Positions 5,516-44,683 of a DNA stretch of 44,683 nt are shown in pieces. The DNA is from Candidatus Dormiibacterota bacterium (GTDB taxonomy: Bacteria; Chloroflexota; Dormibacteria; Aeolococcales; Aeolococcaceae), in NCBI GenBank assembly GCA_003132525.1, contig PKXZ01000032.1, positions 1 to 44,683 of the forward strand, read 5' to 3'. The translations under genes were made by a program, and so were the position numbers. Numbering within the stretch: the first letter of the stretch is position 1; each line of letters starts with the position of its first letter. The notes under the pieces were generated by a model. That model worked only from the letters and a program-made list of their open reading frames with translations. It was not told the DNA's origin and ran no database searches.

Positions 5516-7497
5516 CGCTCGCCGCGAGCAGCGCGCCGACTGGCGGTGCGCTCTTTGCGACCTTCCTCGAGGCTGTTCCGGATGCCGTGGTCGCGGTCGT
5601 GGCCGACGGCACCATCATGCTCGTCAACTCGCAGGCAGAGGCGCTCTTCGGCTATGCATGTGAGGACCTGATCGGCGAGCCGCTCGAGGTGCTGGTGCCG
5701 ACTTCGGTCCGCGACCACGCGCAGCTTCGTGCCACCTATTTCCAGGACCCCGTGCCACGCCCGATGGGGCTCGGCATGGAGTTGTCCGGCAGGCGCCACG
5801 ACGGCGTGGAGTTCCCCGCGGAGATCGCGCTCACCTGGATCGAGATCGATGGCCGTCTGATCGTCGTCGCCTCTGTCCGCGACATCACCGAGCGCAAGCG
5901 CGCCGAGGCGAAATTCCGGAGCCTTCTCGAGGCGGCGCCCGACGCCATCGTCGGCGTCAATCCTGGCGGGCTCATCGCCCTGGTGAACACGCAGGCCGAG
6001 GCGTTATTCGGGTACGAGCGCAACCAGCTCATTGGGCGCCCGGTCGAGTTGCTCGTCCCGGGAGCCGCGCTCAACATCCACTCACCGAATCCCGACCCTG
6101 GGTTCCGCGACCCGCGCACCCGATCTTCCGAGGCCTGGATCCCGCTGGCCGGCAGTCGCGCCGACGGCTCGGAGTTTCCGGCGGAAGTGTCACTATCGTC
6201 GATCGAAACCGAGGACGGTCTCATGGTCTGCGCGGCGATTCGCGATGTCACCGAGCGCGTCGAGGCTCAGCACGAGCGTGATCGCATGGAGGCGCAGCTC
6301 GAGCGAGACAGGCTCGAGCGGCAGCTCCATCAGTCTCAGCGGCTCGAGAGTCTCGGTCAGCTCGCCGGCGGTGTCGCGCACGACTTCAACAACCTGCTGG
6401 CGGCCATCCTCAACTATGTGAGCTTCATTGATGAGGAGATAGCCGCGGAGATCGCCCTGCGCCCGTCACACGAATCGGCACGTCTCAGCGCGGTGCTAGA
6501 CGACGTGAGTCAGATCGGCGCTGCCGCCGAGCGTGCGGCGCGGCTGACCCATCAACTCCTCGCGTTCGGACGTCGCGAGGTCATCAAGCCGGAGATCATC
6601 GACTTCAACGCGATCGTCGGAGAGGTGGACGGTCTGCTGCGCACCACGATCGGCGAGCACGTCGAGCTCATCATGCGCTGCGCGCCGGACCTGGAGCATG
6701 TGCTCGCGGATCGCGGTCAGATGGAGCAGGTGCTGCTCAATCTCGCGGTCAACGCGCGGGATGCGATGCCGACCGGTGGAACGGTGATCATCGACACCGA
6801 TAACTTCGTAGTTGACGACGCGTATGCCGCGCTCGATCCCCGCCTGGAGCCGGGACCGTACGTGCGATTGCGCGTGGCCGATAGCGGCTCGGGCATGACT
6901 CGCGAAACCATCGAGCGCGCCTTTGAGCCGTTCTTCAGCACTAAGCCGAAAGAGAAAGGATCCGGGCTCGGCCTCGCCACGGTGTACGGGATCGTCAACC
7001 AGGCAGGCGGCATGGTCGACCTCGAGTCCGATCTCGGCACGGGAACGACCGTCACGATCCTCCTTCCAAGCGCGACTTCGGCGATCCAGCAGACCGACGC
7101 ACCGCGACGGGCGACGCGACGGAGTCATGGTGGCGAGACCATCCTTGTCGTCGAGGATGAGGATCTTGTCCTCGACGTCGCGAGACGCATCCTCACGAGG
7201 CACGGATACCGGGTGCTCGCCGCACGCGGCGGATCGGAAGCGTTGGAGCTCATCCATGAGCATCGGGGCCGGATCGACCTGTTGCTCACCGATGTGGTCA
7301 TGCCCGGACTGACCGGCAAGCAGGTTGCCGAACGGGTCTCCGAGCTGCGTCCGAACATTCGCGTGCTCTACATGTCCGGATATCCCGAGTCGGTGATCAC
7401 ATCCCAAGGCGTGGTGCAGCGTGGGATCCACCTGGTATCGAAGCCGTTTGTCGCCACGGACCTGCTGGACCACGTGCGCGCCACCCTCGACGCCTGA
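5512..7497 (+). CDS. Hybrid sensor histidine kinase, PAS-PAS-HisKA-HATPase-REC
   Basis: The product is 661 residues with no membrane segment, so probably a cytoplasmic sensor. Two PAS domains (about 15-125 and 130-250) each start AVPDAVVAV or AAPDAIVGV and end DITERKRAE or DVTERVEAQ. A Glu/Arg-rich coiled coil leads to the dimerisation domain, with the phosphorylated His in GGVAHDFNNLLA (about H290). The ATPase domain has N-box NLAVNARDAMP, G1 ADSGSGM and G2 GSGLGLATVYGIV. A C-terminal receiver (about 545-660) has its phosphorylated Asp in LLLTDVVMPG (about D594) and a Lys in VSKPF. This is the group of soluble hybrid kinases with the HDFNN box. No separate response regulator or output domain lies nearby, so the downstream partner is unknown. 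The start is GTG and overlaps the small ORF ahead of it. Confidence 0.93.
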   Translation: MTLAASSAPTGGALFATFLEAVPDAVVAVVADGTIMLVNSQAEALFGYACEDLIGEPLEVLVPTSVRDHAQLRATYFQDPVPRPMGLGMELSGRRHDGVEFPAEIALTWIEIDGRLIVVASVRDITERKRAEAKFRSLLEAAPDAIVGVNPGGLIALVNTQAEALFGYERNQLIGRPVELLVPGAALNIHSPNPDPGFRDPRTRSSEAWIPLAGSRADGSEFPAEVSLSSIETEDGLMVCAAIRDVTERVEAQHERDRMEAQLERDRLERQLHQSQRLESLGQLAGGVAHDFNNLLAAILNYVSFIDEEIAAEIALRPSHESARLSAVLDDVSQIGAAAERAARLTHQLLAFGRREVIKPEIIDFNAIVGEVDGLLRTTIGEHVELIMRCAPDLEHVLADRGQMEQVLLNLAVNARDAMPTGGTVIIDTDNFVVDDAYAALDPRLEPGPYVRLRVADSGSGMTRETIERAFEPFFSTKPKEKGSGLGLATVYGIVNQAGGMVDLESDLGTGTTVTILLPSATSAIQQTDAPRRATRRSHGGETILVVEDEDLVLDVARRILTRHGYRVLAARGGSEALELIHEHRGRIDLLLTDVVMPGLTGKQVAERVSELRPNIRVLYMSGYPESVITSQGVVQRGIHLVSKPFVATDLLDHVRATLDA

Positions 7498-7535
7498 GGG
7501 CGCAGTCGCCCGTCGAGTCGGGGTCGGACGTAAGG

Positions 7536-8903
7536 CTACGCGGCTCCGGCGGGCACCTTCGGCAACTCGGCGAGCGCGGTGTCGAGTCGTTCCTGCGGGA
7601 GCTCGACATCCTGAAGCTTGCCGGCGAAGTACGCGTCGTAGGCACCGAGATCGAAGTGTCCGTGGCCCGAAAGGTTGAACAGGATCACGCGCGAATCCCC
7701 AGCCTCGCGTGCCGCAGCAGCCTCCTGAGCGACCGCACGGAGTGCATGGGACGGTTCGGGCGCCGGCAGGATCCCCTCACTGCGCGCGAAGCGGACCGCC
7801 TCCGCGAAGCATTCGTTCTGCTTGTACGCGCGTGCTTCGATGAAGCCGTTCTTGACGAGCAGGCACAGCGACGGCGCATCGCCGTGATAGCGCAATCCGC
7901 CAGCATGGATCGTGTCAGGGATGAAGTTGTGCCCGAGCGTGTACATCGGGACCACCGGCCCCATCCCGGCGGTGTCACCGAAGTCGTACGCGTAGAGCCC
8001 GCGCGTGAGCGTCGGACACGCGGCCGGTTCGGCCGCGATGAATCGGGTGTTCGTCTTGCCGGCGAGGCGATCGGCCAGGAACGGATACGCGAGCCCGGCG
8101 AAGTTGGACCCACCACCCACGCAGCCGATCACAACGTCGGGATAGGCGTCGGCCATCTCCATCTGCTTCTGAGCCTCCTGACCGATCACGGTCTGATGCA
8201 GCAGGACGTGGTTGACAACCGATCCGAGCGAGTAGTGACTGTCGTCGCGCGTGGCCGCATCCTCGACGGCCTCGGAGATGGCGATGCCGAGGCTGCCCGG
8301 CGACTCGGGCTCCTTGGCGAGCACGCTGCGTCCGAATTCGGTCTGGTCGGTCGGGGAGGGGAGAACCCTGGCGCCCCAGGTCTCCATGAGCGCCCGGCGA
8401 TACGGCTTCTGCTGGTAGGAGACCTTGACCATGTAGACCATGACCTCGAGGCCGAACAGACCGCCGGCGAAGGCGAGCGCTGAGCCCCACTGGCCCGCGC
8501 CGGTCTCCGTGGTCAGGCGCTTGATGCCCTCCTCGGCGTTGTAGTACGCCTGCGCCACCGCGGTGTTGGGCTTGTGCGATCCCGCCGGCGACGTACCCTC
8601 GTATTTGTAAAAGATCCGCGCGGGGGTGTCGAGCGCCTTTTCGAGTTGTGTCGCGCGGTAGAGCGGTGTGGGGCGCCACATCTTGTAGATGTCCCGGACC
8701 CGATCGGGGATCTCGATCCAGCGCTCGGTCGACACCTCCTGCCCGATGATCGCCATCGGGAAGATCGGGGTGAGATCCGGCGGCGTGAGCGGCTCGAGCG
8801 TCCGTGGGCTCAGGAAAGCCCCAAGGGGTTCGGGCACATCCGCGAGGATGTTGTACCAGTGCGACGGCAGATCGTCTTCCGCCAGCAAGAACTTCGTTGT
8901 CAT
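7536..8903 (-). CDS. trpB2: Tryptophan synthase beta-like PLP enzyme (TrpB2 type)
   Basis: The product is 455 residues, the usual length of the TrpB2 group and longer than the roughly 400 of classical TrpB. The PLP lysine lies in [13 protein letters not shown], the phosphate-binding glycines in [12 protein letters not shown], and the closing region reads [11 protein letters not shown]. The group condenses indole (or indole from indole-glycerol phosphate) with serine. TrpB2 proteins often occur outside the trp operon and may work without TrpA, serving as indole salvage or serine deaminase. No trpA or other trp gene is in this window. The ATG at 8903 is chosen over an upstream codon at 8921 because GAGGTGG lies 5 nt before it. 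The gene is divergent from the efflux pump at 9042. Confidence 0.92.
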
Positions 8904-8998: not shown

Positions 8999-9020
8999 GT
9001 TACCTTCATGCGAAGGTAAC
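8999..9020. promoter_or_regulatory. Perfect palindrome, probable TetR-family operator
   Basis: GTTACCTTC-ATGC-GAAGGTAAC: two perfectly complementary 9-nt arms with a 4-nt centre. It lies 21 nt before the ATG of the DHA2 pump, in the space divergent from trpB2, where a repressor would block the promoter or early transcription. The size and symmetry fit a site bound by a TetR-family dimer, and a TetR gene overlaps the end of the same pump gene. That this particular regulator binds here is inference. Confidence 0.7.
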
Positions 9021-9028
9021 ATTCCGAT

Positions 9029-9033
9029 GGAGG
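9029..9033 (+). promoter_or_regulatory. Ribosome binding site of the DHA2 pump
   Basis: GGAGG, 8 nt before the ATG at 9042. It argues against the in-frame ATG at 9027 and the GTG at 8997, which would read through the palindrome. Confidence 0.65.
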
Positions 9034-9041
9034 TAGCTGTC

Positions 9042-10595
9042 ATGAAGCCGACGGGTGCGCGGAGGTGGTGGGCGCTCGCCGCGGTGAGCATGGGTGTCCT
9101 GGCGGTGGGCCTCGATGGGACGGTCCTCAGCGTCGCGCTACCGACGCTCGCCAGGACGTTGCACGCATCGGAGTCGGACCTCCAGTGGTTCTCGTCCGGA
9201 TACCTGTTGGTGCTGGCGGCGGCGATGCTCCCGGCAGGGTTGCTCGGTGACCGGTACGGCCACAAGAAGGTGCTGCTCATCGCCCTCGGTCTGTTCGGAC
9301 TGGGATCGCTGGCGTGTGCCCTGTCAACGTCGGTGGGGGAGTTCCTGGCGGCGCGCGTCCTCCTCGGGCTGGCCGGATCCGGCGTCATCGTCATGGCGAT
9401 CTCCTCGCTCACGGTCCTCTTCACCAAGGAGGAGCGTCCCAAGGCTGTCGGCATCTGGGCGGCCGCCAACTTCCTGGCACTCCCGATCGGCCCCATCCTC
9501 GGCGGATGGCTGCTGACCAACTTCTGGTGGGGGTGGGTCTTCCTGATCAACGTTCCCGTCGCGCTGATCGGGCTGGTCGCCCTGGCGACACTGGTGCCCG
9601 AATCGCGTGCGTCGGAGCGCCCGGGGATCGATCTGGTCGGGGTTGTCCTGTCGATCGCGGGCCTCGTCGCCCTCACCTATGGGCTGATCACCGCGGGAAT
9701 GGATGGGTGGACCGACGCGACCGCGATCCTGGCGATGGGCGGCGGCGTGGTGGTGTTGGTGGGCTTCTTCGCCTGGGAGCGGCACCTCAACCGGCAGCCT
9801 GCCGGCGAGCCGCTGCTCGACCTCTCGCTGTTCAGCTCGGCGTCGTTCACGTGGGGCGTCATCCTCGCGGCCATCGCTGTGCTCTCGATGATCGGCGTGC
9901 TCTTCACACTGCCCCAGTACTTTCAGGGGGTGCTCGGTACCGACGCCATGGGTTCGGGTCTGCGCCTCCTCCCCGTGATCGCCGGTCTCATCGTCGGCGC
10001 GATCCCTTCCGACCGCGTGGTCAAGTTGATCGGCGCGAAGCTGACCGCCGGCGCCGGGTTCGCCTTCATCGCCGTCGGACTGCTCATCGGGACAACCACG
10101 GGCGTGACCTCGAGCACCCTTTTTGTGGCCGGCTGGATGGCGATCATCGGCGTCGGCTTGGGTCTGGCACTCTCCACGTCAACCTCGGCAGCCCTGGTCG
10201 AGCTCTCCGAGGAGCGCAGTGGCGTGGGATCAGCGGTGCTTCAGGCGGTGAACAAGGTTGGTGGTCCCTTTGGGACGGCCATCCTTGGAAGCGTGCTCAG
10301 CTCGATCTACCTGTCGCACCTTGCGCTGTCGGGGATTGCGGCTCCGGCAGCTGCAGCGGTCCGCCAGAGCGTCTTCGGCGGCGTTGCGGTCGCGCAACAG
10401 CTCGGGTCGCCTGCGCTGCTCCATTCGGTGCGCAGCGCGTTCGTTGACGGCATGGACGTTGCGTTGGCCGTGTCGGCGGGGATCGCGGTCGCCGGTCTGA
10501 TACTCACCCTGGTCTTCCTGCCGCGCGCCAATGCGTTGCATGACAATCAGCAGGTGGAATCCGACCAAGAGCGACAGCTTGCCAATGTCCGCTGA
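9042..10595 (+). CDS. DHA2-family (14-TMS) MFS drug efflux transporter
   Basis: The product is 517 residues, typical of the 14-helix DHA2 drug:proton antiporters. The family motif A, GLLGDRYGHKKVL, is in the loop after the second helix. The first helix region carries LDGTVLSVALPTL, characteristic of the EmrB/QacA group, and the helix-5 antiporter motif reads ALPIGPILGGWL. The protein would export lipophilic or cationic compounds across the cytoplasmic membrane at the expense of the proton gradient. The start is set by GGAGG 8 nt upstream. The 3' end overlaps the start of a TetR-family gene by 11 nt, and a perfect palindrome precedes the gene, so substrate-induced derepression is the likely control. 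The substrate cannot be read from sequence. Confidence 0.93.
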   Translation: MKPTGARRWWALAAVSMGVLAVGLDGTVLSVALPTLARTLHASESDLQWFSSGYLLVLAAAMLPAGLLGDRYGHKKVLLIALGLFGLGSLACALSTSVGEFLAARVLLGLAGSGVIVMAISSLTVLFTKEERPKAVGIWAAANFLALPIGPILGGWLLTNFWWGWVFLINVPVALIGLVALATLVPESRASERPGIDLVGVVLSIAGLVALTYGLITAGMDGWTDATAILAMGGGVVVLVGFFAWERHLNRQPAGEPLLDLSLFSSASFTWGVILAAIAVLSMIGVLFTLPQYFQGVLGTDAMGSGLRLLPVIAGLIVGAIPSDRVVKLIGAKLTAGAGFAFIAVGLLIGTTTGVTSSTLFVAGWMAIIGVGLGLALSTSTSAALVELSEERSGVGSAVLQAVNKVGGPFGTAILGSVLSSIYLSHLALSGIAAPAAAAVRQSVFGGVAVAQQLGSPALLHSVRSAFVDGMDVALAVSAGIAVAGLILTLVFLPRANALHDNQQVESDQERQLANVR

Positions 10596-40536: not shown

Positions 40537-40598
40537 CGATCATGGCACGGCCCGCTGAACCCGCCGGTGAAAAGGTTGGCGGTAAGGTTTGCGGTCAC

Positions 40599-41495
40599 AT
40601 GGTTGAGGACAGCCTGCGGGGGATCCATCTCGGCATCGTCGGCACCGGGGTGATGGCCGAGGCGATGCTGGCGGGCCTGCTCGAGCGCGAGCTCGTGCCG
40701 GCGCGTGACATCGTCTGCACGCATCCACGCGCTGCCCGCCGGGAGGAGCTCGTCGCGACCTATCACGTCAACGTGGCCGAGCGGAATGTCGAGGCCACCA
40801 AGGACACGGACGTCGTCCTGCTCGGGGTGAAACCTCAGATGCTCGGAGGCGTGATGGCAGAGCTACGAGGCTCGCTGCAGCCGTCGCAGCTGCTGATCAG
40901 CATCATCGCGGGCGCGAGCACGACGGCGCTCGGAGAGGGCCTCGACCATCCGGCCGTGGTGCGCTGCATGCCGAACACGCCGGCGCAGATCGGCCGTGGA
41001 GTCACCGTCTGGTACGGGACCGAGAGCGTGGACGAGACCGGCAAGGCTCGAACCAGGGCGATGCTGAGTGCACTGGGACGTGAGTTCGAGGTGCATGACG
41101 AGCGCCAGGTCGCGATGGCGACCGCCGTGAGCGGGACCGGACCGACGTACATCTTCCTGTTCATCGAAGCGCTGACCGACGCTGCGGTGCATCTCGGGTT
41201 TCCCCGCCACGTGGCCCGGGAGCTGGTCCTCGACACCATGCAGGGGAGTGCAGAGTTCGCGCTCCAGAGCGGCAAGCACGTCGCCCAGCTGCGCGACATG
41301 GTCACGTCGCCGGGAGGGACATCCGCCGAGGCGCTGTATGAGCTGGAGCGTGGCGGATTCCGAACGGTCATCAGCGATTCGGTGTGGGCGGCATTCCACC
41401 GCACCCTGCAGCTCGAGGCCCAGCTCGAGAAGCGCGCGATGGAGTTTCCGACCGTGCCGCCTCGCGCGAAGGGACGCGGCGCCGCCCGACGCTGA
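40599..41495 (+). CDS. proC: Pyrroline-5-carboxylate reductase
   Basis: The product is 298 residues from the ATG at 40599; AAGG lies upstream at somewhat long spacing. The NAD(P) motif is GIVGTGVMAEAMLAGLL. The ProC signatures CMPNTPAQIGRGVTVW, VSGTGPTYIFLFIEALTDAA and VTSPGGTSAEALYELERGGF are in order. It reduces pyrroline-5-carboxylate to proline. The tail after about residue 275 (LEKRAMEFPTVPPRAKGRGA) is a short basic extension. It is on the same strand as the ligase cluster, 52 nt ahead. Confidence 0.95.
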   Translation: MVEDSLRGIHLGIVGTGVMAEAMLAGLLERELVPARDIVCTHPRAARREELVATYHVNVAERNVEATKDTDVVLLGVKPQMLGGVMAELRGSLQPSQLLISIIAGASTTALGEGLDHPAVVRCMPNTPAQIGRGVTVWYGTESVDETGKARTRAMLSALGREFEVHDERQVAMATAVSGTGPTYIFLFIEALTDAAVHLGFPRHVARELVLDTMQGSAEFALQSGKHVAQLRDMVTSPGGTSAEALYELERGGFRTVISDSVWAAFHRTLQLEAQLEKRAMEFPTVPPRAKGRGAARR

Positions 41496-41547: not shown

Positions 41548-42792
41548 ATGGCACGCACCCATCTGATCGGGATGTTGCTCGGGGTCGAGGAGGACTGGCC
41601 GGCGGCGTTCGAGGCGCTGCTCGGACGGGCCGATCTGGCTGTGCGTGAAGGCGGGGAGACCCATCGCTTCACCACCGAGCGGATGACCATCGAGCCCTTC
41701 GACCTGCGCATGAGGCCACGCCAGTCGCTCGTCATCGACCGCCTGGGCTGGTGGTACCCCATGCCCCGTGAGTGGTTGAAGAAGGTCGTGCTGATGGACC
41801 ACGTTCATCTGCTCAACAACCCGTTTACGTTCCAGGCCATGGAGAAGCACGCGGCATATTGCGCGATGATCCGCCTCGGTCTCAAGGTCCCGGAGACGTG
41901 GATGCTGCCCAACAAGACGCCACCGGACAACCCTCGTTTCCAAGGCACGGCGGAGCGATACCTGCGCTATTTCGACCTCGAGGCGGTGGCGCGCGCTGTT
42001 GGCATGCCCCTGTACATGAAGCCGTTCGACGGCGGTGCCTGGGTCGGCGTTTCACGCATCGAGAATGCGGAGACGCTCTATCGCGCCTACGACGAATCCG
42101 AGCAGCGACTCATGCATCTGCAGGCGTCGGTGGATGGATACGACGTATTCGCGCGCAGCCTCGGCATCGGCGCCGAGACGATCGTGCTCAACTTCCATCC
42201 CGAGAAGCCGATGCACGACCGGTATTCGGTCGACCACAACTTTCTGACGCCGCGCGCCGGTGATGAGGTGCTCTCCATTCTGCGCACCGTCAACGCGTTC
42301 TTCCGGTGGGAGCTCAACAGCTGCGAGACGTTGATTCGTGGCGACGACGTCTATCCAATCGATTACGCAAACGCGACCCCCGACCTCGCGCTCACGAGCC
42401 TCCACTATTACTTTCCGTGGGCGATTCGCAGCCTGCTGAAGTGGGTGGTGTTCTGCTGTGTCACCGGCCGCCTGCAGACGGTCGACCTCAACACCGAGGC
42501 GTACTACGCCATCGCCGACCGCGCGGACCTCAGCTACGAGGAGAAGCTCGCGGGCTACCGCAAGCTCGCCGACAAGCAGCTCGACATCGAGCGCTATCGC
42601 GACTTCTGCGCACAGCACCTCGCGCACATCGACGAGCTGTCAGTGGCGTGGGTGGAGAGCGCGGACTTCGACCGGATCATCGTCGAGACCGTCCGCAACA
42701 CGTTCCCGGCGCACGAGCACGAACAGTTCATCGCCCATTTTCGCGGGCTCATGGCGGCGTGGGCTCATGACCAGCGCGCAGCGGCAGCGTAG
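41548..42792 (+). CDS. ATP-grasp-like (RimK-type) protein
   Basis: The product is 414 residues. The start ATG at 41548 has no clear ribosome site; M at 41572 is possible. An N-terminal region (residues 1-100) is followed by an ATP-grasp-like core: CAMIRLGLKVPETWMLPNKT, LYMKPFDGGAWVGVSRIE (Lys and Gly-rich loop) and WELNSCETLIRGDDVYPIDY with ANATPD (metal-site-like). The C-terminal 100 residues are helical and family-specific. RimK-type enzymes join a carboxylate to an amine. It sits 12 nt before a GCS2-type ligase, strongly suggesting a common pathway. The substrates are unknown. Confidence 0.8.
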   Translation: MARTHLIGMLLGVEEDWPAAFEALLGRADLAVREGGETHRFTTERMTIEPFDLRMRPRQSLVIDRLGWWYPMPREWLKKVVLMDHVHLLNNPFTFQAMEKHAAYCAMIRLGLKVPETWMLPNKTPPDNPRFQGTAERYLRYFDLEAVARAVGMPLYMKPFDGGAWVGVSRIENAETLYRAYDESEQRLMHLQASVDGYDVFARSLGIGAETIVLNFHPEKPMHDRYSVDHNFLTPRAGDEVLSILRTVNAFFRWELNSCETLIRGDDVYPIDYANATPDLALTSLHYYFPWAIRSLLKWVVFCCVTGRLQTVDLNTEAYYAIADRADLSYEEKLAGYRKLADKQLDIERYRDFCAQHLAHIDELSVAWVESADFDRIIVETVRNTFPAHEHEQFIAHFRGLMAAWAHDQRAAAA

Positions 42793-42804
42793 AGTGGATC
42801 GCCC

Positions 42805-43998
42805 ATGACCCACATCGAGTTCGTCTCCAGTCCCAGGCCGACCGTGGGCGTGGAGATGGAGCTGGAGCTCATCAACCGCGACACGCGTGAGCTGGTGAGC
42901 GGGGCCCACGAGATCCTCGGCGAGATGAACGCCGGGCACGGTGAGGCGGGCCATCCCAAGGCCAAGAAGGAGCTGCTCCAGTCGACGGTTGAGATCATCA
43001 CGGGCATCTGCGAGACGGCGGCGGAGATAAAGGCGGACCTGGCCGCGACCATGGCCGAGCTTCGCGAGCGCACCGAGCCGCGCAACCTCGAGCTGATTTG
43101 CTCGGGAACACATCCCTTCAGCGACCCGGCCCTCCAGGAGATCAGCCCCGACCCGCGCTACCTGCGCCTCGTCAGTGACATGCAGTGGCCTGCGAGGCAG
43201 ATGCAGATCTTCGGCATTCACGTGCACGTCGGGGTTCGCAGTGGCGAGAAGGCGATCGCGATGGTCAACGCGCTCTCCGCGTACATCCCGCACTTCCTCG
43301 CGCTCTCGGCGTCAAGCCCGTACTGGATGGCCCACGACACGGGCATGGCTTCCTGGCGTTCGAAGGTCTTCGAGGGCCTGCCCACCGCGGGTCCTCCGTG
43401 GATCCTGAGCGGCTGGCCGCAGTTCGAGCAGCTGATGGACACGCTCATCTCGTCGCACACCATCAAGACGATTCGCGAGGTGTGGTGGGACATCCGTCCG
43501 CACCCCGGCTTCGGCACTGTCGAGATTCGTGTTTGCGACGGCATCCCCACACTGCGCGAGGTGGGAGTCGTCGCGGCGCTGAGCCAGTGCCTCGTGCACC
43601 AGTTCGATACCATGATCGACCGCGGCTACACGCTGCCGACGCCACGCGCGTGGTTGGTCCGGGAGAACAAGTGGCGTGCGGCCCGGCACGGCCTCGACGC
43701 ATCGATCATCGTCGACGAGGGCGGCACGACCGTGCCGCTCCGCCAGGCGCTTCGCGAGCTCGTCGAGGATCTCACGCCGATTGCGACGCGGCTCGATTGC
43801 ACGAATGAGTTGCGTGGCGCCCTCGACATCATGGAGCGAGGCTCGAGCTACATCCGCCAGCGCGAGGTCGTCGAGGCCGGCGGCTCGCTCGTCGATGTCG
43901 TCGACAGCCTGATCGCCGAGCTGCATGCGGACATGCCGGCCCCGCGCTCCGCGGTGCTGGAGAAGCTAGGCAAGCAGGCCGTCGGCGCCGCGGACTGA
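42805..43998 (+). CDS. GCS2-family carboxylate-amine ligase (YbdK-type)
   Basis: The product is 397 residues, the normal length of the family. Signatures of the glutamate-cysteine ligase 2 group are in order: PTVGVEMELELINRDTRELV, LQSTVEIITGICET (active-site Glu), FGIHVHVGVRSGEKA and VWWDIRPHPGFGTVEIRVCD. The enzyme activates a carboxylate as acyl phosphate and couples it to an amine. YbdK of E. coli makes gamma-glutamyl-cysteine weakly, and actinobacterial relatives include EgtA. Whether this one makes a thiol precursor or another gamma-amide is open. Its neighbours are ATP-grasp proteins on both sides. Confidence 0.92.
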   Translation: MTHIEFVSSPRPTVGVEMELELINRDTRELVSGAHEILGEMNAGHGEAGHPKAKKELLQSTVEIITGICETAAEIKADLAATMAELRERTEPRNLELICSGTHPFSDPALQEISPDPRYLRLVSDMQWPARQMQIFGIHVHVGVRSGEKAIAMVNALSAYIPHFLALSASSPYWMAHDTGMASWRSKVFEGLPTAGPPWILSGWPQFEQLMDTLISSHTIKTIREVWWDIRPHPGFGTVEIRVCDGIPTLREVGVVAALSQCLVHQFDTMIDRGYTLPTPRAWLVRENKWRAARHGLDASIIVDEGGTTVPLRQALRELVEDLTPIATRLDCTNELRGALDIMERGSSYIRQREVVEAGGSLVDVVDSLIAELHADMPAPRSAVLEKLGKQAVGAAD

Positions 43999-44021
43999 GC
44001 GTCGCGCGTTCGCGGAATGCG

Positions 44022-44683
44022 TCAGTTCGCGTAGAGCTGGAGCTCGGTCGCGAAACGATCCGCGATCTCGATGCACGAGCCCAGGTCGGGGTGTCTCACG
44101 ATGACCATTCCATCGGAGATGAGCGTCATCATCCAGTCGCGACGTGGCGCTCCGATGGGAAGCAGATCGATCGAGCACACCCACTCGTCGTAATCCGAGA
44201 GCAGTCGGGACAACCCTTCGATGTGCGTGATCCTGCCCTGTCCCTGCGCGCGCTTGAAGATTGAGGCTGCGTTGTAGCGGCGCTCGATCGGCTCTGACAA
44301 GTGTCCGTGGACGAGTGCCTCGGCCCATTGCTGAAACAGGTCGAGGTCGTTGGCGAAATTCATCACGTCCACCGTGCGAGCGCCCGGCGGGCGTGCGCCG
44401 ATCTCGCCGAAGACCACCTCGCCATTGTCGCGCCGGTACCACTCCATGTGTGTGAACCCGTCGCGAAATCCGAGCGCGCGCAATACGTCGCGACCCATGG
44501 CGCGGCCGCTCGAGAGCTCGGGCGCGTCGATGTCGCGCACCACCATCGTCACCGGGCTGATCCACTCGAGCTGGCGAGCGATCAACGGCCGCGGGCGGTA
44601 CCAGGCGACGTTGTCGAAGAGCACCTCGCCGCCGGCGCAGATGGTGTCGTAGGTGAACTCCTGCCCGTCGATGAACTCCTCGA
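44022..44683 (-). CDS. ATP-grasp ligase, 5' end outside the window
   Basis: At least 220 residues of the C-terminal two-thirds are visible; the frame is open to the edge, and the GTG at 44624 is not the true start. The visible part has EEFIDGQEFTYDTICAGGEV (the post-loop segment of ATP-grasp folds, with the carboxylates that hold metal-ATP), HMEWYRRDNGEVVFGEIGAR (the late Glu and Arg), PPGARTVDVMNFANDLDLFQ and IERRYNAASIF. The best match is the carbamoyl-phosphate-synthase-like ATP-grasp group (CarB/PurK-like). It converges on the YbdK-type gene, 23 nt between stops. Confidence 0.85.
   Translation of the reverse strand, partial: EEFIDGQEFTYDTICAGGEVLFDNVAWYRPRPLIARQLEWISPVTMVVRDIDAPELSSGRAMGRDVLRALGFRDGFTHMEWYRRDNGEVVFGEIGARPPGARTVDVMNFANDLDLFQQWAEALVHGHLSEPIERRYNAASIFKRAQGQGRITHIEGLSRLLSDYDEWVCSIDLLPIGAPRRDWMMTLISDGMVIVRHPDLGSCIEIADRFATELQLYAN

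Follow-up and report, generated by a model that had tools for sequence, protein, structure and literature searches.

The three ligase genes at the right edge of a 44,683-nt stretch of Dormibacterota DNA (the whole of what was analysed, called the window in the following) form the left half of a larger gene cluster, which comprises up to five amide-forming ligases, a protein similar to S51 peptidases and two esterases. We suggest that this cluster makes a small metabolite of the non-ribosomal peptide type, most likely an intracellular one, with a gamma-glutamyl or comparable carboxylate-amine linkage; the probability of this reading is put at roughly 60%. A bolder version is advanced only tentatively. 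It holds that the genes represent an undescribed pathway widespread in Dormibacterota and Actinomycetota, in which four to five ATP-dependent ligases would act one after another to build a new class of small peptide metabolites from a gamma-glutamyl unit; two esterases would mature the product, together with an S51-fold protein devoid of peptidase activity in the window's lineage.

Gene A (41548..42792, plus strand, ATG start, 414 aa) is followed by gene B (42805..43998, plus strand, 397 aa), and the 3' part of gene C (44022..44683, minus strand) is cut by the window edge. The earlier note on this DNA had described three ligase genes together at the right edge, the second one 12 nt after the first and the third one, an ATP-grasp gene, convergent with the second, and all of this is what we find. 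Because of the codon-position pattern of differences between the window and a related locus (L034), which at positions 1/2/3 amount to 28/12/144 in A, 25/16/156 in B and 16/9/77 in C, all three are judged to be real coding sequences that evolve as such. The window belongs to contig C47 of a draft genome, to which MAGs of Candidatus Dormiibacterota are the nearest named relatives. It halts directly before an N at position 44684; the contig itself runs on to 45289, and C continues to approximately this point, interrupted by a few Ns. The remainder of the cluster, i.e., C', C'', the S51-like gene and the esterase genes E1 and E2, is located on contig C103 of the same genome (L116, 9798-14730). 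Within this scaffold, the reading frame of C' merges into a fragment resembling the glycyl-tRNA synthetase alpha chain (9018-10589, contig G000:C103), and a fragment resembling the gliding GTPase MglA as well as a run of Ns lie close to it (about 6650-8200), both fragments being identified by eye. Because of these features C103 looks chimeric.

Protein A has no significant match in Pfam and only weak matches of the D-Ala-D-Ala-ligase (Ddl) type. Its structure model, built from 56 homologues, reaches a pLDDT of 88 and matches the folds of RimK (4iwx, TMt 0.69), ArgX (0.69) and Ddl, beyond which about 100 further residues form a helical extension at the C-terminus. Residues K158, G162, G163, E260, D272 and N275, which make up the ATP-binding lysine, the Gly-rich loop and the acidic/Asn metal-binding positions, are invariant in both cluster types described below, down to 28% identity. 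Based on the confident fold model and these invariant motif residues, A is predicted to be an ATP-grasp protein of RimK/Ddl type. It falls outside the RimK family proper, the model TIGR00768 being absent among its matches at E values up to 1.

The assignment of B is more direct. It scores 199.9 bits against the Pfam GCS2 model PF04107 (cut-off 21), 310.7 bits against TIGR02050 (cut-off 176.4) and 571 bits against NF010043 of NCBIfam (cut-off 409), and it matches E. coli YbdK (1r8g) with an E value of 1.2e-53 in sequence comparison. B is thus classified as a carboxylate-amine ligase of the YbdK-type GCS2 (glutamate-cysteine ligase) family, and formation of a gamma-glutamyl amide is predicted. 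Protein C was studied in its full-length form from L034, which matches 4wd3 (E 6.7e-17), 3vot (E 1.1e-15) and BacD (E 6e-9); its motif residues are retained. Its two paralogues C' and C'' share 32-36% identity with C and with each other and hence represent three diverged copies. By sequence, all three are ATP-grasp proteins of the same kind as the L-amino-acid ligases BL00235 and BacD, which act in dipeptide and bacilysin synthesis, so that formation of dipeptides is predicted for them. The difference lies in the context: three diverged copies share one cluster with a GCS2 protein and A, and bacilysin genes are absent from the loci read.

The remaining three proteins lie outside the window. 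The S51-like gene (11854-12801 in L116, and in relatives) encodes a protein without a match in Pfam, and sequence searches of the PDB with single sequences and with profiles returned nothing or chance matches only. Its model (pLDDT 84.8) finds 6nqc with an E value of 1.8e-7 and a probability of 1.00, and further 7c9b and 6a4t; the TMq is only 0.44, because the protein has a long helical insert. From the model, the fold is predicted to be that of peptidase E and cyanophycinase. The putative nucleophile Ser212 is invariant. In Actinomycetota the protein carries the motif LPHARRRL, whose histidine, assigned by motif and not by structure superposition, we take to be the catalytic one; Dormibacterota have LPAA instead, with alanine at this position. 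Catalysis in the window's lineage is therefore doubtful as far as this motif tells, and the Dormibacterota form may be a pseudo-peptidase. E1 and E2 belong to the esterase family PF00756, E1 being related to enterochelin esterase. Both retain the serine of GxSxG and a late histidine and are predicted to be serine esterases of the alpha/beta hydrolase type.

In related genomes the genes follow a common order, with A and B in tandem, C and C' on the opposite strand, and then C'', the S51-like gene, E1 and E2. A close relative of A occurs in 14 of the 61 genomes searched around the window (the window's own counted), in all 14 with B directly beside it. C'' is found in exactly the same 14 genomes and the S51-like gene in 13 of them. 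In the compact copy L036, 15 nt separate A from B, 31 nt B from C and 83 nt C' from C'', while C and C' as well as C'' and the S51-like gene abut or overlap. Extra sequence separates B from C in L033 (12449-13538) and in L034 (12449-14232), where it holds a RibD_C-type reductase and another open reading frame; the gap is only about 30-130 nt in other copies. The idea of the earlier note that the amide-forming ligases belong together, with the same gene order to be found elsewhere, is therefore borne out, with up to five of them per cluster and the order conserved in many genomes. It had also proposed looking past position 44683 for further ligases, amidases or transporters: more ligases, and hydrolases, are indeed there, whereas no transporter recurs among the clustered neighbour gene families (from automatic gene calls). 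The PADLOC models of known anti-phage defence gave no match for nine proteins, and a defence reading was rejected on these grounds.

A second, divergent cluster type was found in 14 further genomes, which carry A', about 30% identical to A. A GCS2 protein B' (about 34-35% identity to B) is encoded in 12 of the 14, roughly 1.4 kb from A' and on the same strand; overall, protein identities to the first type range from 28 to 35%. The intervening gene X codes for a circularly permuted ATP-grasp protein, to judge from a weak Pfam match (PF14403, 28 bits, below the cut-off of 32). This type also carries E2, and E1 in three loci; in L123 the order is E2-A'-X-B', all in one direction. Since the esterases, A' and a GCS2 gene recur here, a core of E1, E2, A and GCS2 has been kept across two diverged cluster types.

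Outside the Dormibacterota, A is common in Actinomycetota (about 60-65% identity); a search of plasmids gave no match. Around A, 80 loci were fetched, nine of them from Dormibacterota or near relatives, and E2 is present in 53 and the E1b form of E1 in 47 of the 80. The arrangement E1-E2-A is widespread, and full clusters are found in some lineages, namely Geodermatophilus, Pseudonocardia and several MAGs. The actinobacterial GCS2 belongs to a different subfamily (GCS2b) without a BLAST link to B at an E value of 1e-3. It was present in all nine A-bearing Actinomycetota genomes tested, beside A or elsewhere. In a phylum-wide sample of 149 genomes, GCS2b occurs in 8 of 13 genomes with A, and is not found in the other 5, as compared to 15 of 136 without A (Fisher p 8e-5, shared ancestry ignored). 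The S51-like protein is confined to A-bearing genomes in the same sample (3 of 3; p 5e-4, again ignoring shared ancestry), in one of which A and the S51 module lie 1.8 Mb apart. Most Actinomycetota have A without C, C', C'' and the S51-like gene, and in Streptosporangiaceae A has a DUF2252-like gene next to it, with both E1 and E2 missing; for these reasons an independent function of A is possible. In Nonomuraea and relatives (L085, L090, L092, L094, L101, L103, L108 and L109), the DUF2252-like gene adjoining A, recognised by eye, encodes 431 aa, and a further RimK-like gene is often located near A.

From the observed gene content and its conservation, the motif residues, the folds predicted and the patterns of co-occurrence, we infer which reactions take place and in what order, on which substrates and to which product, as follows. 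B would activate a glutamate-like carboxylate as acyl phosphate and couple it with an amine, after which A and the three C proteins would add or join further amino acids at the expense of one ATP each. The protein with the peptidase E/cyanophycinase fold would trim, recycle or bind the product, E1 and E2 would act on an ester of this product by cleavage or transfer, and jointly these three proteins would mature, release or bind it. An intracellular product is favoured because no transporter recurs among the neighbour families.

An alternative with a low-molecular-weight thiol as product starts from glutathione synthesis, whose logic is that of a GCS2 enzyme plus an ATP-grasp enzyme, i.e., glutamate-cysteine ligase followed by GshB. 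B, which likewise stands beside ATP-grasps, would form gamma-glutamylcysteine, to which a third residue would be attached by A or one of the C proteins. B indeed exceeds the cut-offs of NCBIfam models named glutamate--cysteine ligase, but for YbdK-type proteins such model names do not prove the use of cysteine. In contrast to glutathione synthesis, neither A nor C matches the GshB models (at E values up to 1 and 0.01), and up to four additional ATP-grasps, the S51-like protein and two esterases come with the cluster; five ligases and three accessory proteins exceed the needs of a tripeptide thiol. Moreover, MshC scores above its family cut-off in 7 of the 9 A-bearing Actinomycetota genomes tested, which are therefore able to make mycothiol. 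A substitute for mycothiol would call for cluster genomes without mycothiol synthesis, and this is not the pattern in Actinomycetota; the MshC-like genes of Dormibacterota all stay below the cut-off. The thiol that the earlier note had considered among possible products is weakened accordingly, and we regard it as unlikely. The known egt pathway was ruled out, as B scores 12.7 bits against the EgtA model with its cut-off of 370.8, and no egt or msh gene is among those read around A in two relatives, so that the view of these genes as lying outside the known egt and msh pathways still stands.

The RimK-like fold of A also allows for a role in post-translational modification, in which A or the C proteins would attach amino acids to a protein or RiPP, to be edited by the esterases and the peptidase-like protein. 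This is distinctly unlikely in our judgement. The C proteins resemble ligases forming dipeptides, and no RiPP precursor gene, one of the graspetide type included, lies inside the cluster, because compact copies such as L036 leave almost no intergenic room (at most about 83 nt). A protein target encoded outside the cluster is possible.

Storage or provision of a compatible solute would follow the logic of cyanophycin, where ligases build a peptide that a cyanophycinase-fold protein, here with the esterases, mobilises. ATP-grasp ligases together with the fold common to cyanophycinase and peptidase E, the missing recurrence of a transporter, and weak matches of C' and C'' to cyanophycin-synthetase models are in agreement with this view. 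These matches, however, fall far short of the cut-offs and are of a kind that ATP-grasp proteins show in general. No CphA is encoded in the loci read, its place being taken by discrete ligases, and in comparison to CphB the S51-like protein has the long helical insert and, in Dormibacterota, has lost its probable catalytic histidine. We thus consider a storage role improbable. That three unrelated ligase genes have come to lie beside proC by chance is hardly credible: some genomes do have A without GCS2, or GCS2 without A, but the conserved order, the near-exact co-occurrence in Dormibacterota and the fact that the core reappears in the other, divergent cluster type speak against it.

The gene proC (40542..41495, plus strand; TIGR00112, 251 bits), which encodes pyrroline-5-carboxylate reductase, had been named in the earlier note as a possible tie to glutamate/proline metabolism. 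This is not supported. The genomes searched, including relatives without the cluster, have a single copy of it, and it can stand on either side of the cluster: in the window's genus the cluster follows downstream of proC, and another genus has it between M50 and proC. On these grounds proC was rejected as a pathway gene. Most probably it is a housekeeping neighbour, although its persistence at the cluster boundary leaves some doubt. In the incomplete draft genome G007 (L134, G007:C239, 467-2760), proC is followed by the GCS2 gene B, and A was not found anywhere in this draft.

The general idea of distinct peptide ligases that are linked in operons and predicted to ligate successively has already been published (Iyer et al. 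2009, as cited in PMC4431377), and several distinct amide ligases are encoded together in our cluster likewise. Our literature search found no paper describing the exact combination of A, GCS2, C, C', C'', the S51-like gene, E1 and E2, an earlier mention in Iyer et al. 2009 being possible.

If the proposal of a peptide metabolite is right, this small molecule is made by soil bacteria from a largely uncultured phylum and also by actinobacteria that can be cultured, among them Geodermatophilus sabuli and a Pseudonocardia. The chemistry can thus be tested now in isolates, beyond metagenomes, and the core of E1, E2, A and GCS2, recurring in differently built clusters, provides a defined enzyme set for assays.

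A minor observation concerns MshC. Four Dormibacterota contigs (G002:C15, G005:C71, G014:C34 and G058:C138) each carry an MshC-like gene scoring 385-403 bits (cut-off 485), well above the second, weaker match in each genome. Judged by these scores, mycothiol-type synthesis outside the Actinomycetota is possible.
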